From: Terrimonas ferruginea DSM 30193
GTDB lineage: Bacteria > Bacteroidota > Bacteroidia > Chitinophagales > Chitinophagaceae
Assembly (NCBI RefSeq): GCF_000425585.1
Contig: NZ_KE384401.1
Span: 62,001-126,000, forward strand
DNA length: 64,000 nt
Direction: 5' to 3'
Below are positions 50,516 through 54,383 of this stretch, one piece after another; the stretch's first letter is position 1, and each line of letters opens with the position of its first letter. The notes under the pieces are model-generated. The model saw only the letters and a list, made by a program, of their open reading frames with translations, ran no database searches and was not told the origin of the DNA. The translations under genes and the position numbers were made by a program.

Positions 50516-51439
50516 TTAAAAAGAGTAACTCACATATACCATGCAACGGTCGCGCGCGCGCACTTTCCCCTCACCTAATTGCTGACTGAGCGGATGCTGA
50601 TAATTAGCACCTATGCCTATGTTGCCGGCTGCAAATTCTGTTCCCACCGTTCCCATCAATGAATGACCGCCGGTTGCGAATACTTCCAGTTCCCGCGTGT
50701 TGTGGTCCTTCTGCGATGTTTCATACAACAGACCCGCATTGGGTGATACGACCAGCTTCGATGTTTTCACCGCCTGATAATAAAGCAGACTGTTCAGGGT
50801 GAACTTGTTTCCATACCGGTAATCAGCCTGGTTGTAGTTGTTGATCTTATAAGACGAGTTAACATTTAATCCGGCTTTACCGAATTTGATATCATACATC
50901 AGGTGAGCGGAAAAATCCATGCTGCCCGTGCCAAGTTGAAATGTATTCTGTCCGGCCTGTTCGATATTCTTTTCTTCTTTATTGTATTGTCCGGTCGGTA
51001 ATTTGAAGCCCGCACCGATCCAGAGATTTTGCTCCAGCAATTTATCGCCAACAGCTTGCTGGTGATTAAGCAACCGGTAATAACCCACCATGCTCACATC
51101 TCCGATGCCGTTGCGGGAAGTGGTGCCTTCCTGGTTTTTTCTTTCAATAAAATTATACGGAACAAAAGCCGCCACGCGGAATCGTTGTCCAAAGTTTACG
51201 GCACCCCATACCTCCGCCACGCGATAGGTTTCTTTGGTAGTTAAATAAGTGATACTGCCACCTGGACCAAGATGATCGCGCAGGCCATTTTGCTGAAAGC
51301 GCAAGCCGATGAATCTTTTTTTGAACGAAGGCCACAGGCCCATGTATGATCCGCCACCGCCACTGCCGCAGATATCGCAGGCATAAGACGACAGGGAAAT
51401 AAACAACAGCAAAAATGCTGTTCCCGCAGATTTTATCAT
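50516..51439 (-). CDS. Predicted outer-membrane barrel with an N-terminal CDICG motif
   Basis: Last gene of the MbnP-like cluster, 307 residues. Right after the signal peptide (ending about residue 20) the mature protein starts CDICGSGGGGSYMG, a two-cysteine motif followed by a glycine run. The rest alternates aromatic and polar residues as in a transporter-type outer-membrane barrel and ends VYVSYSF with a terminal Phe. The two cysteines at the mature N-terminus could bind a metal, which is inference. Its ATG overlaps the stop of the DUF2911 gene by four bases, so translation is coupled. Confidence 0.75.
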   Translation of the reverse strand: MIKSAGTAFLLLFISLSSYACDICGSGGGGSYMGLWPSFKKRFIGLRFQQNGLRDHLGPGGSITYLTTKETYRVAEVWGAVNFGQRFRVAAFVPYNFIERKNQEGTTSRNGIGDVSMVGYYRLLNHQQAVGDKLLEQNLWIGAGFKLPTGQYNKEEKNIEQAGQNTFQLGTGSMDFSAHLMYDIKFGKAGLNVNSSYKINNYNQADYRYGNKFTLNSLLYYQAVKTSKLVVSPNAGLLYETSQKDHNTRELEVFATGGHSLMGTVGTEFAAGNIGIGANYQHPLSQQLGEGKVRARDRCMVYVSYSF

Positions 51440-52053
51440 TTTGTAGCAATTGAAGTGAAAGGAATATGAATATGTTTTTTCTCCCAGAGAAAAGTAATAG
51501 CGCCGGACTGATCATCCACACGGTCTACGGCGTAGGTGAGCCGCGGCGTTTCTTCGTGGTCTTCGGGCGTTACATTGAAGCGTAACACATCTTCTTTGGG
51601 ATTGTATTCATCCGTTAAATGTTGTTCATGCCGGCTGTTGAATATAGCAATCCATTGATCGCGGCCGGGTATGATGAAGAAAGCATAAGTACCTGCGGGT
51701 AATGCTTGTTCATTTATTTTCACCGGGCCATTCAGTTGAATGGTTGTAGCCTGATGAGCGCCGGCCACCCAAACCTGGTCATAGGGAACCAGTCCGCCCC
51801 AGATCACGCGGCCACGCACGCCGGGAGAATGATAAACGATGTGTACGTGCACGCCGCCGACAGTTGCCATGGCGGTGCGTTGCGGACTTCCTTTGAGCGT
51901 ATCGTCTTTGATCAGTCCGTTGTTGATGCTATCGCAATACCCGGACGAAGCGCTCTGCGGCATGTTATGTTTTGAGTGGTCTGTTTTGGCGGGTTCATTG
52001 CCGCAGGCGTATAACAAGCACAACAGTATGGCGGGTAATAATATATTTTTCAT
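51436..52053 (-). CDS. DUF2911 domain lipoprotein
   Basis: A 205-residue lipoprotein with the signal ending in LYAC (Cys17). A His-containing linker (DHSKHNM) precedes the DUF2911 domain (about residues 58-200; KGSPQRTAMATVGGVHVHIVYHSPGVRGR). The domain has several histidines (HVHIVYHSP, GAHQAT) but its function is unknown. It lies three bases after the diheme peroxidase gene and overlaps the barrel gene, so the three are surely co-transcribed. Confidence 0.85.
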   Translation of the reverse strand: MKNILLPAILLCLLYACGNEPAKTDHSKHNMPQSASSGYCDSINNGLIKDDTLKGSPQRTAMATVGGVHVHIVYHSPGVRGRVIWGGLVPYDQVWVAGAHQATTIQLNGPVKINEQALPAGTYAFFIIPGRDQWIAIFNSRHEQHLTDEYNPKEDVLRFNVTPEDHEETPRLTYAVDRVDDQSGAITFLWEKKHIHIPFTSIATK

Positions 52054-52056
52054 AAT

Positions 52057-53073
52057 CTATTGCTCCGACAGGAGCCGGTTGGTGATAAAATCTTTATCGT
52101 CTAATGTTTTGAGAAATGCGATCAGCTTTGTTTTCTCGTCATCGCTGATGGCAATGCCTTGCCCGGGTTGCAATGAGGGATCGAGGTTGGGTGTGTTCTG
52201 CACCCGGCTGCGGTAATGATCGATCACGGCATCCAGCGTATAAAACCTGCCGTCGTGCATGTAAGGAGCCGTGTACGACAAGTTACGGAGGCTTGGTACT
52301 TTAAACTTGTATTTATCGGCAGGATTCAGCGTCACGAGATAACGTCCTTCGTCATTGTTGGTGCCGATGGCAATGCCGTTGTTGCGGAAGGAGAAATCCG
52401 TGAGCAACGGTTCAGCGTGACAATTGCTGCATTTTTGCTGAAAAACCGTGTAGCCGGCTTGTTCATCTGCCGTAAAGATTTCTTTTCCCTGCTTTACGCG
52501 ATCATACTTTGCATTGGCGCTTACACAAAGGATCATGAATTGCGAAAGAGCTTTCATCATTCTTGCCGTTGTGATTTCTTCGGAACCAAATGCCTTTTTG
52601 AAAAGCTTCGGATAATCGGGGTGTGCTTTCAGTTTCTGAAGAACATTGGCTACGCTTTCATCCATTTCTTCATGGGCCGTGATGGGCGCAATGGGTTGCA
52701 GGTCGAGATCGAATACGCCACCATCCCACATAAACGAAGGGCTCCACGCAAGGTTCATAATAGGTGGTGAATTGCGTTTTCCCAACCGGTCGTCGATACC
52801 ATGACTTACATCGTGGCCATGTTGTGTAAAGGCAGATGACTGGATATGACAGCTACCGCAGGAAATGGTATTGTTTCTTGAAAGGCGGGGCTCATAGAAC
52901 AGTTTTCTGCCGAGTTCAAAGCCTTCTTTGGTAATGGGATTGTTGTTCAGCGCGTAAGAAGGTTCAGGAAAATGCGAGGGTTTCCGGAAGCCTTCAAACT
53001 GGTCAACGATATCCTTGCTGCATGAAACAAGAATAATAAAACCAACGCTGAAAAGCCAGAATCGCTTGCTCAT
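52057..53073 (-). CDS. Diheme cytochrome c peroxidase family lipoprotein (MbnH-like)
   Basis: A periplasmic c-type diheme protein of 338 residues. The lipoprotein signal ends in LVSC (Cys18). Two heme attachment sites are seen, CGSCH (72-76) and CSNCH (215-219), plus the conserved MWDGG (116-120) and MHDGR segments. Members next to MbnP proteins belong to the MbnH branch; MbnH oxidises tryptophan of MbnP to kynurenine instead of reducing peroxide. Assignment to that branch rests here on the adjacent mbnP-like gene (29-base gap). Plain peroxidase activity is the alternative. Confidence 0.87.
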   Translation of the reverse strand: MSKRFWLFSVGFIILVSCSKDIVDQFEGFRKPSHFPEPSYALNNNPITKEGFELGRKLFYEPRLSRNNTISCGSCHIQSSAFTQHGHDVSHGIDDRLGKRNSPPIMNLAWSPSFMWDGGVFDLDLQPIAPITAHEEMDESVANVLQKLKAHPDYPKLFKKAFGSEEITTARMMKALSQFMILCVSANAKYDRVKQGKEIFTADEQAGYTVFQQKCSNCHAEPLLTDFSFRNNGIAIGTNNDEGRYLVTLNPADKYKFKVPSLRNLSYTAPYMHDGRFYTLDAVIDHYRSRVQNTPNLDPSLQPGQGIAISDDEKTKLIAFLKTLDDKDFITNRLLSEQ

Positions 53074-53102
53074 AATTAGCTTATTTGATTGAAAAATGGC
53101 GA

Positions 53103-53909
53103 TCAGTTTTCAGTATGGTCATGATAGAACATGGCCGTATAATTATTGGCGATATTGGTGCTGAAATCACTAAACATTACCGTTGGATTGGTGGCAATAC
53201 TAAGGTTATTGGAATTGTTGAAGATTTTCAGCAGGTCTACCATCAGGTGAATATTGGCATTACGTCCTTTGCGCGGCCGGGCAATGCCGGAGGCAGAAAG
53301 GTCGATCGTAATTTTTTTGATGTTGTTGATCGTTGGAGCAGAGTAGCCTCCGAATCCGCCGATATGATAACGGAACTTTCGCTGCCCGGATGGATCAACG
53401 GGGGCAGAGGGGGAAATGCCTTCAAACTTTACGAAAATATATCCGCTGTTCCAGCCCCAGTACATGCCGTCTTCCATACCGCCTGAGGGGTCGAGCACGC
53501 CGGTACGTTTGGTAATGTCCATGGTGCTGCGCAGGCTGTCAACACCGAGTATAAAGCTGAGCTGCCTGTAATCGCCTTCCGGTACTTTTACCCTGGCGAA
53601 ACGCGTAGCGGCATCGCTTTCACGAATGAGAAAATAGCTGCTGTCCTGGTTTACTACATATTCGGTGCCATCGGCACGACGAAGGCTGATATTGCTGATA
53701 AAGTATTGGAACATACTTACGTTGAAGTCTTCTCCCGCCCCATTGGTGTAGGTAACGGTGTTGAGAAAGAGATTTTGTCCCCCAACGATATTGTCAAATT
53801 CAACGGAAAGAGGAACCAATTCACTTTCATCAGATGTGTCGTTTACATCTTTCTTACAGGATACGATGAAGAGCATGGCCACGCTGGCCATGAAAACATA
53901 TTTTTTCAT
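53103..53909 (-). CDS. MbnP family copper-binding lipoprotein (predicted)
   Basis: A 268-residue lipoprotein with the signal ending in IVSC (Cys18). The pattern LSVEFDNIVGGQNLFLN, then MFQYFISNISLRRADG, then MYWGWNSGYIFVKFEG is that of the MbnP family. MbnP from methanotrophs binds copper after a partner diheme enzyme converts tryptophan to kynurenine. W151 and W153 in WGW are the obvious candidates for such modification. His182 in RYHIGG and His263/His265 in the C-terminal MFYHDH could be ligands. It directly precedes the diheme gene. Copper binding is inferred from the family. Confidence 0.82.
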   Translation of the reverse strand: MKKYVFMASVAMLFIVSCKKDVNDTSDESELVPLSVEFDNIVGGQNLFLNTVTYTNGAGEDFNVSMFQYFISNISLRRADGTEYVVNQDSSYFLIRESDAATRFARVKVPEGDYRQLSFILGVDSLRSTMDITKRTGVLDPSGGMEDGMYWGWNSGYIFVKFEGISPSAPVDPSGQRKFRYHIGGFGGYSAPTINNIKKITIDLSASGIARPRKGRNANIHLMVDLLKIFNNSNNLSIATNPTVMFSDFSTNIANNYTAMFYHDHTEN

Positions 53910-53993
53910 GGAAATATTAATTAGTGTTCAGAGATAAATACACGTCGGCATAGCCGGTCGGACAAACCGGATGCACATGGATAAAAATGAACA

Positions 53994-54368
53994 CTAGGCA
54001 GCGGGAGGATGAAAGAAAGAAGACGGTTGATCAACAGTAGCCGCTACCTGGAATACAGCATATTCGCCGGTAGTGTTGTTGGTTGTTTTCAATTCGCCGG
54101 TGTGATAGAAGGAACGGGAGGAGAGTACGAGTAAAGGAACTTTGAGTTCTGCTTTTTTCTCCTGGTTTTCCTGCTCTTTCTTTTCTTGCGCCTTGATCTT
54201 TTGCATCAACTGACATTTACCGTCGCAATGAAGCTGTGGTCTGGCCTTGTTGACGCAATCTTTGGCGTAAGCCATGCGGTTGGTATAATAGTCAAGGAAG
54301 TAAACGCCCCGCATGAAGGTCTGGGCGGTGAATGAAAGGAGCAATATGATAGCGACTATCCTGTACAA
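53994..54368 (-). CDS. Small membrane protein with an HCDGKC motif, first gene of the copper-type cluster
   Basis: A 124-residue protein with one N-terminal hydrophobic segment (about 4-25). A conserved-looking cysteine region follows: Cys38, then HCDGKC (His47, Cys48, Cys52) and Met55. A Lys/Glu/Gln-rich helix (57-76) and a short C-terminal domain come next. The Cys/His/Met spacing would suit Cu(I) binding, which is inference. The start is a TTG at 54368: no ATG occurs in frame before the membrane segment, and an exact promoter element ends only seven bases upstream. The MbnP-like gene follows after 84 bases. Confidence 0.68.
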   Translation of the reverse strand: MYRIVAIILLLSFTAQTFMRGVYFLDYYTNRMAYAKDCVNKARPQLHCDGKCQLMQKIKAQEKKEQENQEKKAELKVPLLVLSSRSFYHTGELKTTNNTTGEYAVFQVAATVDQPSSFFHPPAA

Positions 54369-54375
54369 AGCGGCA

Positions 54376-54383
54376 CAAAGATA
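54376..54383 (-). promoter_or_regulatory. -7 promoter element of the copper-type cluster
   Basis: Exact TATCTTTG on the minus strand. The expected start of transcription falls at or within a few bases of the TTG start codon at 54368, so the first gene would be translated from a leaderless message. Confidence 0.6.

Follow-up and report, generated by a model that had tools for sequence, protein, structure and literature searches.

In the genome of the Bacteroidota member Terrimonas ferruginea DSM 30193 (assembly GCF_000425585.1), a stretch of 64,000 nucleotides (nt) of contig NZ_KE384401.1 (positions 62,001 to 126,000, hereafter the window) carries on its minus strand five consecutive genes. 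In the order of transcription, they encode a small protein with an HCxGKC motif, a lipoprotein of the MbnP family, a diheme lipoprotein resembling MbnH and MauG, a DUF2911 lipoprotein, and a predicted outer-membrane barrel (Table 1). A first-pass annotation of this DNA had proposed a copper-handling system composed of these five genes, and all five open reading frames (ORFs) are found as described, with the 84-, 29-, and 3-nt gaps and the 4-nt overlap exactly as given. Of the limits assigned to the cluster, 50,516 stands, whereas 54,383 does not mark a gene: the ORF of the small protein begins at 54,368, and 54,383, which lies 15 nt upstream, is the first base of the element TATCTTTG. The identities of the MbnP-like, diheme, and DUF2911 proteins are borne out by matches above the Pfam cut-offs to PF20243 (174.5 bits, cut-off 27), PF03150 CCP_MauG (181.5 bits, cut-off 25.6), and PF11138 (154 bits, cut-off 27), respectively. 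The WGW motif described for MbnP corresponds to W151/W153, and the HDH motif lies within its C-terminal tail (HDHTEN). The cluster contains no TonB-dependent receptor, as had been noted, and the claimed lack of a methanobactin gene holds insofar as no match to TIGR04159 (MbnB) is found genome-wide, MbnA not having been searched. Moreover, a second set of HCxGKC, MbnP, and MbnH genes, in this order, is present on another contig; two HCxGKC genes were detected in the genome at the threshold applied, and both of its MbnP–MbnH loci begin with one of them. The cluster is therefore confirmed as an observation, and its interpretation as a copper-related unit is partly supported. The reading that is favored here, with some reserve, is that of a Bacteroidota copper-acquisition operon with an FHPP-ending leader, an MbnP–MbnH pair, and a barrel in the slot of a TonB-dependent receptor.

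Table 1. Features of the cluster, in coordinates of the window.
Feature	Position	Strand	Remarks
TATCTTTG, match to the presumed Bacteroidota promoter -7 element	54376..54383	-	directly upstream of the leader ORF; from sequence
HCxGKC small protein, putative copper-sensing leader ORF	53994..54368	-	124 residues; TTG start; HCDGKC
FHPP codons, putative arrest motif	54003..54014	-	2 residues ahead of the stop; from sequence
Hairpin spanning the leader–MbnP gap	53922..53996	-	arms TAGTGTTCA (53996-53988, leader stop codon included) and TGAACACTA (53930-53922)
MbnP-family lipoprotein	53103..53909	-	268 residues; PF20243
MbnH/MauG-like diheme lipoprotein, putative MbnP maturase	52057..53073	-	338 residues; CGSCH and CSNCH; PF03150
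DUF2911 lipoprotein, optional accessory	51436..52053	-	205 residues; PF11138
12-stranded outer-membrane channel of predicted COG4313/FapF fold, CxxC at predicted mature N-terminus	50516..51439	-	307 residues; predicted model

Four of the five genes form a recurrent unit. Among 147 genomes sampled from the family of the host, from which 40 stretches were fetched, 106 contain MbnP and 67 contain the barrel. Gene order was compared in 80 named loci, which were kept out of 314 confirmed ones for their likeness to the window-type MbnP, and 8 of which reach a contig end within 5 kb; they belong to Chitinophaga, Taibaiella, Niabella, Pedobacter, Mucilaginibacter, Terrimonas, and other genera. Within 5 kb of MbnP, HCxGKC and MbnH are found in all 80 loci and the barrel in 77, all core parts being present in these 77. 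The order HCxGKC, MbnP, MbnH, barrel occurs in 53 loci, a tandem form with two MbnP–MbnH pairs in a further 16, and the core order is unchanged in loci from other Bacteroidota families. The co-occurrence that had been suggested as a check for all five families thus holds for these four and fails for DUF2911, which is present in 10 of the 80 loci; it is rejected as a core part and is better described as an optional passenger, whose place is occupied in some other loci by a YHS or a helical protein. Further accessory genes within the same distance encode SCO proteins (22 loci), YHS lipoproteins (15), AraC-type regulators (15), and the helical protein (5); the SCO, YHS, and helical-protein labels derive from home-made models with 2, 8, and 2 seeds, and for one SCO and one YHS member the label was borne out by Pfam. 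At 5 to 9.5 kb from MbnP, there remain one HCxGKC, two SCO, and six AraC genes and none of the other families, so that SCO is enriched near MbnP (22 of 80 versus 2 of 80). In two loci (L191 and L192), a 224-residue gene is located between SCO and the four core genes, and in L191, the one scanned, it encodes an iron/manganese superoxide dismutase.

Since the 80 loci had been selected by their window-type MbnP, an even sample of 296 Bacteroidota genomes was added, in which neighbors were counted if they shared the strand and lay at most 4 kb away; three second fragments of barrel genes were left out of the co-location count. MbnP is found in 78 of these genomes (102 places) and the barrel in 75 (81 places, some of them weak partial matches that possibly represent other barrels). 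HCxGKC is present in at least 120 genomes and at least 150 places, and its figures in this sample are those among the matches listed. Of the 44 genomes with both, 33 have the barrel next to MbnP, and 33 of the 102 MbnP places have a barrel nearby, where about 0.06 would be expected if the genes were placed at random in 4-Mb genomes; the corresponding values for HCxGKC are at least 42 places and about 0.10, and both genes together accompany MbnP at 29 places or more. The orientation is also nearly fixed, with HCxGKC upstream versus downstream of MbnP in a ratio of 45:1 and of the barrel in a ratio of 38:1, and the barrel downstream versus upstream of MbnP in a ratio of 31:2. Of the 40 stretches fetched from this sample, 20 were picked for the barrel and 20 for an MbnP without a nearby barrel. 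In the latter, MbnH adjoins MbnP in 19 (the exception, L206, has no gene labelled in its layout, although the Pfam MbnP model matches there), and in two (L216 and L218) a TonB-dependent receptor follows close behind the pair. Therefore, MbnP and MbnH constitute the inner pair of the unit, and the outer-membrane part is variable. The channel that had been proposed in the first-pass annotation is nevertheless conserved alongside this pair. An alternative order is found in L085-L089, where HCxGKC is followed by the barrel, a lipoprotein of about 134 residues (DUF4625-like in the one scanned), and MbnP; thus, the barrel can also directly succeed the leader.

The small protein at the head of the cluster matches no Pfam or NCBIfam family above cut-off. 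It displays a hydrophobic N-terminal segment, the cysteine motif C38-x-N40...C48-x-G50-x-C52, and a C-terminal FHPP, and across 35 diverse homologues the only invariant residues are C38, N40, C48, G50, C52, P121, and P122. According to patterns defined for this analysis, both the Cys and the PP motifs are present in 138 of 141 distinct members; they are spaced by 62 to 65 residues in 114 of these 138, and 1 to 4 residues follow PP, again in 114. The pattern [FLIYV][HRQKV]PP occurs in the last 12 residues of 127 of 137 HCxGKC proteins versus 3 of 549 other ORFs of 90 to 200 residues from the same loci. Upstream of the gene, an element TAnnTTTG, which we take to be the -7 element of Bacteroidota promoters, occurs in 102 of 128 cases at a distance of 100 to 170 nt ahead of the Cys codon (mean 6.8 and maximum 13 in 200 mononucleotide shuffles). 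It is accompanied by a weak enrichment at -33 (TTG in 38 of 102 versus 23 of 128 in an arbitrary window), and a scan of the region for sigma-70 type promoters gave no excess (8 versus a mean of 6.9). In most relatives, the element keeps a similar distance from the Cys codon; in the window, it is so near the TTG start that the mRNA of the leader would have hardly any 5' untranslated region. Downstream of HCxGKC, the median gap is 184 nt (n = 71; 186 nt with corrected starts), in comparison to 5 nt between MbnP and MbnH (n = 99) and 9 nt between MbnH and the barrel (n = 68), all with ORF starts uncorrected except where indicated.

HCxGKC genes also occur apart from MbnP and the barrel. Among the matches listed, 95 places have neither of them within 4 kb, and 20 stretches (L238-L257) covering 21 of these orphan places were fetched. 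A TonB-dependent receptor is encoded by 13 of the 14 large downstream ORFs scanned, the remaining one (in L252) being without a Pfam family; the receptor is the second gene in L240 and lies about 1.2 kb away in L243. Behind the receptors, PepSY_TM is third in two loci, and others have BNR-repeat or HlyD-type proteins, while in three stretches an SCO, AraC-type, or helical-protein gene comes next instead. The receptors of these orphan pairs are candidates for Bacteroidota copper receptors whose sensor would be built in. In L213-L215 and L252, HCxGKC precedes a protein of 282 to 307 residues and another of about 680 residues, and no Pfam family was found in those scanned (the pair of L213 and the 680-residue protein of L252).

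Based on the invariant Cys and PP residues, their near-fixed spacing, the promoter element, the first-gene position, the long gap, and the TonB-dependent receptors headed elsewhere, the HCxGKC protein is probably a copper-sensing nascent-chain leader similar to CruR and CutF rather than a copper carrier. This replaces the earlier view of the HCDGKC protein as an exported component of Cu(I) type, to which the same features are less suited. That it is instead a stable membrane-anchored copper-binding protein or chaperone acting with MbnP, in an operon still devoted to copper uptake, is unlikely: three invariant Cys residues behind a hydrophobic segment would be in keeping with such a role, and CxGKC may suit Cu(I), but the invariance of a PP so close to the C-terminus, the constancy of its distance from the Cys residues, and the position and gap of the gene argue against it. 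The parallel with CruR and CutF points the same way, their products being described as undetected in cell extracts or whole cells (PMC9426467, PMC9973294).

In Bordetella, the first gene of the cruR–bfrG(crtA)–PepSY_TM operon (cruR–crtA–bp2921) is reported to be a copper-responsive upstream ORF with CXXC and RAPP 45 residues apart (PMC9426467, PMC12914433), and homologues of CruR are said in the former source to head operons with MbnPH-like genes as well. HCxGKC shares with CruR (DUF2946) of Bordetella pertussis the small Cys-containing product in first position, the C-terminal PP, and the long gap, and the orphan loci recall the cruR–crtA–PepSY layout in having TonB and sometimes PepSY_TM after the leader. 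Unlike CruR, it has CxxxC instead of CXXC, and its assignment to DUF2946 (PF11162) was rejected by sequence, with 0 of 35 members matching and none in the host genome. CutF of Rhodobacter capsulatus has CxxxC and a proline-rich end, and 19% of 5,334 CutF-like proteins are reported to belong to Bacteroidota (PMC9973294), so that a leader sensor would not be unheard of in this phylum. In common with CutF, HCxGKC has CxxxC, a C-terminal proline motif, and the first-gene position. A stem-loop is also predicted in the leader–MbnP gap of the window, a hairpin with perfect 9-bp arms and an RNA fold of -25 kcal/mol (z -3.41; equalled in 2 of 200 shuffles). In contrast to CutF, HCxGKC heads MbnP, barrel, or TonB genes and not a multicopper oxidase, and the stem from stop to start is not conserved.

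Two proteobacterial plasmid loci, picked as examples among 40 listed of 367 plasmid records and not representing a count, have a similar layout, with a small protein that ends in a PP motif ahead of MbnP–MbnH. In Ideonella, a DUF2946 protein with RGPP and 4 more residues at its end is followed by MbnP, MbnH, and a TonB-dependent receptor. In Paracoccus seriniphilus, a small protein with no Pfam match, ending in RAPP plus 3 residues, precedes MbnP, MbnH, a copper-uptake-associated protein, PCu(A)C, and two SCO proteins. In a 2025 survey, copper-related RAPP/RGPP leaders are described as absent from Bacteroidota and TonB-related ones as present in Gram-negatives generally, and CruR is reported to stall in vitro with its two prolines occupying the P and A sites of the ribosome (PMC12992588). 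The string HPP is absent from the main text of this survey and of PMC10987492. In Bacteroidota, F[HRQ]PP would be a natural candidate for the arrest function of RAPP/RGPP, if ribosomes do stall on it.

The barrel matches no Pfam or NCBIfam family, and neither its alignment nor DUF2911 yielded a convincing solved relative by sequence. Three of 39 barrel relatives match PF13557 (best 9.1e-9), although the window protein does not; PF13557 (Phenol_MetA_deg) is presumably the Pfam family of COG4313. An AlphaFold2 model with a mean predicted local distance difference test (pLDDT) score of 85.9 resembles the COG4313 channel 4rl8 (Z 24.9, 2.6 Å, 249 residues) and FapF 5o65 (Z 24.3), autotransporters scoring about 20. 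The 12-stranded prediction thus agrees with the COG4313 channels (Pput2725 and SphA) and FapF, from which the protein differs in its copper-type neighborhood and in the CxxC pair (C21 and C24, invariant in the 39 relatives) with which the mature protein is predicted to begin. Signal-peptide cleavage was judged by eye, and CxxC starts the presumed mature segment, leaving about 20 residues before the first strand. In the solved COG4313 channel, the N-terminus is reported to lie inside and almost close the lumen (PMC4493636), a location in which the Cys pair of the barrel might bind Cu(I). Because the cluster lacks a TonB-dependent receptor and the leader family often heads such receptors elsewhere, the barrel probably takes the receptor slot in this cluster. 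It is slightly less likely still than a membrane-anchored carrier that the unit would serve copper export or detoxification, or the secretion of either MbnP or some peptide by way of a FapF-like barrel, instead of copper uptake. Such an outward direction would be compatible with FapF being an exporter structurally as close as COG4313 and with the HlyD/CusB-type gene in one orphan locus (L245), as well as with CutF heading a copper detoxification gene (PMC9973294) and with the reported secretion under copper limitation of MopE, whose copper site includes a kynurenine (PMC3423442). It is at odds with the TonB-dependent receptors, and sometimes PepSY_TM, headed by HCxGKC, with the SCO neighbors, and with the N-terminus of the model, where the roughly 20 residues would offer no room for the periplasmic coiled coil of FapF.

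The predicted model of the MbnP-like lipoprotein has 7l6g (MbnP of M. trichosporium) as its only match at E <=0.001 (best E 4.8e-12, TM-score about 0.5), and in the sequence alignment GMYWGW and RYH of the window fall on GMAWNW and MVH of 7l6g. In the 2021 structure of MbnP, the copper site reportedly consists of a His, a Met, and a kynurenine derived from the first Trp of WxW; M149, W151-x-W153, and H182 of the window presumably correspond to these residues. All four are kept in 126 of 160 distinct MbnPs. In 99 barrel-linked MbnPs, Met149 is conserved in 98, Trp151, Trp153, and His182 in all 99, and the tail His265 in 94, whereas in 22 MbnPs with MbnH and no barrel the respective numbers are 14, 21, 19, 21, and 2. 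An HxH tail is found in 92 of 98 barrel-linked MbnPs versus 9 of 41 others and none of 20 first copies of tandems, a linkage for which common descent would be as good an explanation as contact with the barrel. The 20 tandem first copies retain WxW and have V, I, or L in place of Met149 (20 of 20) and Glu in place of His182 (19 of 20), and the second MbnP of the host (L003:12040-12813) likewise keeps WxW with Val and Glu at these positions. The copper site is systematically changed in these proteins, for which another metal or role is possible.

The closest solved relatives of the diheme protein by sequence include 4aal (E 4.9e-43) and, tied with it, the di-heme enzyme 6e1c (E 5.8e-43). An identification of 4aal as methanotroph SACCP was dropped, as the entry reads just "cytochrome c551 peroxidase"; we take it to be Geobacter MacA. 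The axial residue is Tyr287 in the window and Tyr in 61 of 66 relatives of 300 to 420 residues (Phe in 4, Trp in 1); among references, it is Met in the canonical CCP and Tyr in MauG and two MbnHs. This Tyr alone is not diagnostic, since the remaining four full PF03150 proteins encoded in the genome all have it. In a midpoint-rooted tree with one canonical peroxidase reference on a long branch, the window protein falls in a 65-row group (96/84) with two proteobacterial MbnHs, and MauG and the CCP lie outside; five MbnP-paired diheme proteins of other families (L196-L200) also fall outside the supported group. A CcpA-like nature is not supported by these comparisons with a single canonical reference. 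An ordinary H2O2-scavenging peroxidase with a kynurenine-less MbnP as partner, to which the tie of 4aal with 6e1c would lend itself, is very improbable in view of the axial Tyr where the canonical reference has Met, the grouping with MbnHs, the WxW of all 99 barrel-linked partners, and the adjacency to MbnP in 19 of 20 barrel-less loci. Two genes publicly annotated as "methanobactin export MATE transporter MbnM" (L233:5755-7026 and L234:5869-7038) match and align with the diheme protein, and this annotation looks wrong.

The pair as a whole resembles MbnP–MbnH of Methylosinus trichosporium and its proteobacterial relatives (PF20243, TIGR04052, TIGR04039) in the MbnP fold, GMxWxW, the aligned His, and the adjoining diheme protein with an axial Tyr, and the Bacteroidota loci differ in adding the COG4313-like barrel, the HCxGKC leader, and the HxH tail. 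A diheme protein beside a copper-binding protein is also reported for MopE–SACCP and CorA–CorB of methanotrophs, MopE having kynurenine at its copper site (PMC3621798, PMC3912023, PMC3423442), although the sequence of MbnP is reported in 2013 to be not markedly similar to that of MopE or CorA (PMC3621798). The first-pass annotation had seen in the cluster a methanobactin-independent version of the system. A conserved unit does exist, with no MbnB match in the genome of the host, but that 2013 paper already describes MbnP–MbnH pairs outside methanobactin operons and far beyond methanobactin producers.

Taken together, the acquisition operon proposed here would operate as follows. The nascent HCxGKC chain would bind copper via C-x9-C-x3-C while the ribosome slows on the C-terminal F[HRQ]PP, and, when copper is scarce, the stalled ribosome would permit expression of the downstream genes. 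MbnH, as an exported diheme enzyme, would oxidize a tryptophan of WxW in MbnP to kynurenine, and the modified MbnP would bind Cu(I) through Met149 and His182. The COG4313-like barrel, with the Cys-x-x-Cys N-terminus in its lumen, would pass copper inward across the outer membrane, and the DUF2911, YHS, and SCO proteins may be variable parts of the periplasmic hand-off. A broader version is more tentative, rather doubtful as a whole: HCxGKC proteins would be widespread copper-sensing F[HRQ]PP arrest peptides of Bacteroidota, controlling a TonB-independent import in which a kynurenine-bearing copper lipoprotein delivers to a channel of COG4313 fold, with a Cys plug at the N-terminus of the channel as its gate.

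Several points weigh against this reading. No data on expression, metal binding, or modification were found for any component of the cluster. Regarding the leader, its motif is FHPP and not RAPP, and the spacing is mostly 62 to 65 residues and not 45. The stop-to-start hairpin was rejected as a conserved mechanism, as 6 of 111 distinct leader gaps reach p <= 0.05 (123 gaps minus 4 outside 20 to 600 nt and 8 duplicates), and the folding of leader gaps is modestly above that of control gaps (mean z -2.41, n = 88, versus -1.90, n = 130 used of 355 found; p 0.005; 60 and 40 shuffles each, respectively), a difference small enough for gap folding to be kept out of the main evidence. Of the 102 MbnP places in the phylum sample, 69 are without a barrel within 4 kb and 60 without HCxGKC (the latter among the matches listed), and MbnP and barrel are neighbors in just 33 of 296 genomes. 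The window MbnP scores 43.3 bits with TIGR04052 (equivalog cut-off 140) and, unlike that of Methylosinus trichosporium, lacks the four-Cys motif, its sole Cys being that of the lipobox; the diheme protein scores 219.6 bits with TIGR04039 (cut-off 362.85), which is still its top NCBIfam model, and its tree group includes two paralogues of the host that are not beside MbnP. Finally, the N-terminus of the barrel is poorly modelled (residues 13-31, pLDDT <50), COG4313 channels are thought to take up hydrophobic molecules (PMC4493636), and FapF exports a peptide (PMC5557850).

No paper joining MbnP to such a barrel or describing an FHPP leader was found in a search that left out most subscription journals and all supplements, and the neighborhood analyses of the 2019 MbnH and 2021 MbnP papers may already show part of the architecture. 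The passage of copper through the outer membrane of Bacteroidota is poorly understood. As judged from sequence, the recurrent operon unites a probable channel and a probable copper protein, whose cofactor would derive from its own residues, with a putative built-in sensor. Moreover, the FHPP family would explain why copper-related RAPP/RGPP leaders are reportedly missing from Bacteroidota, as this lineage may use another arrest motif. If this is true, searches restricted to RAPP/RGPP arrest motifs miss a large class of leaders, to judge by the number of sampled Bacteroidota genomes that contain HCxGKC.

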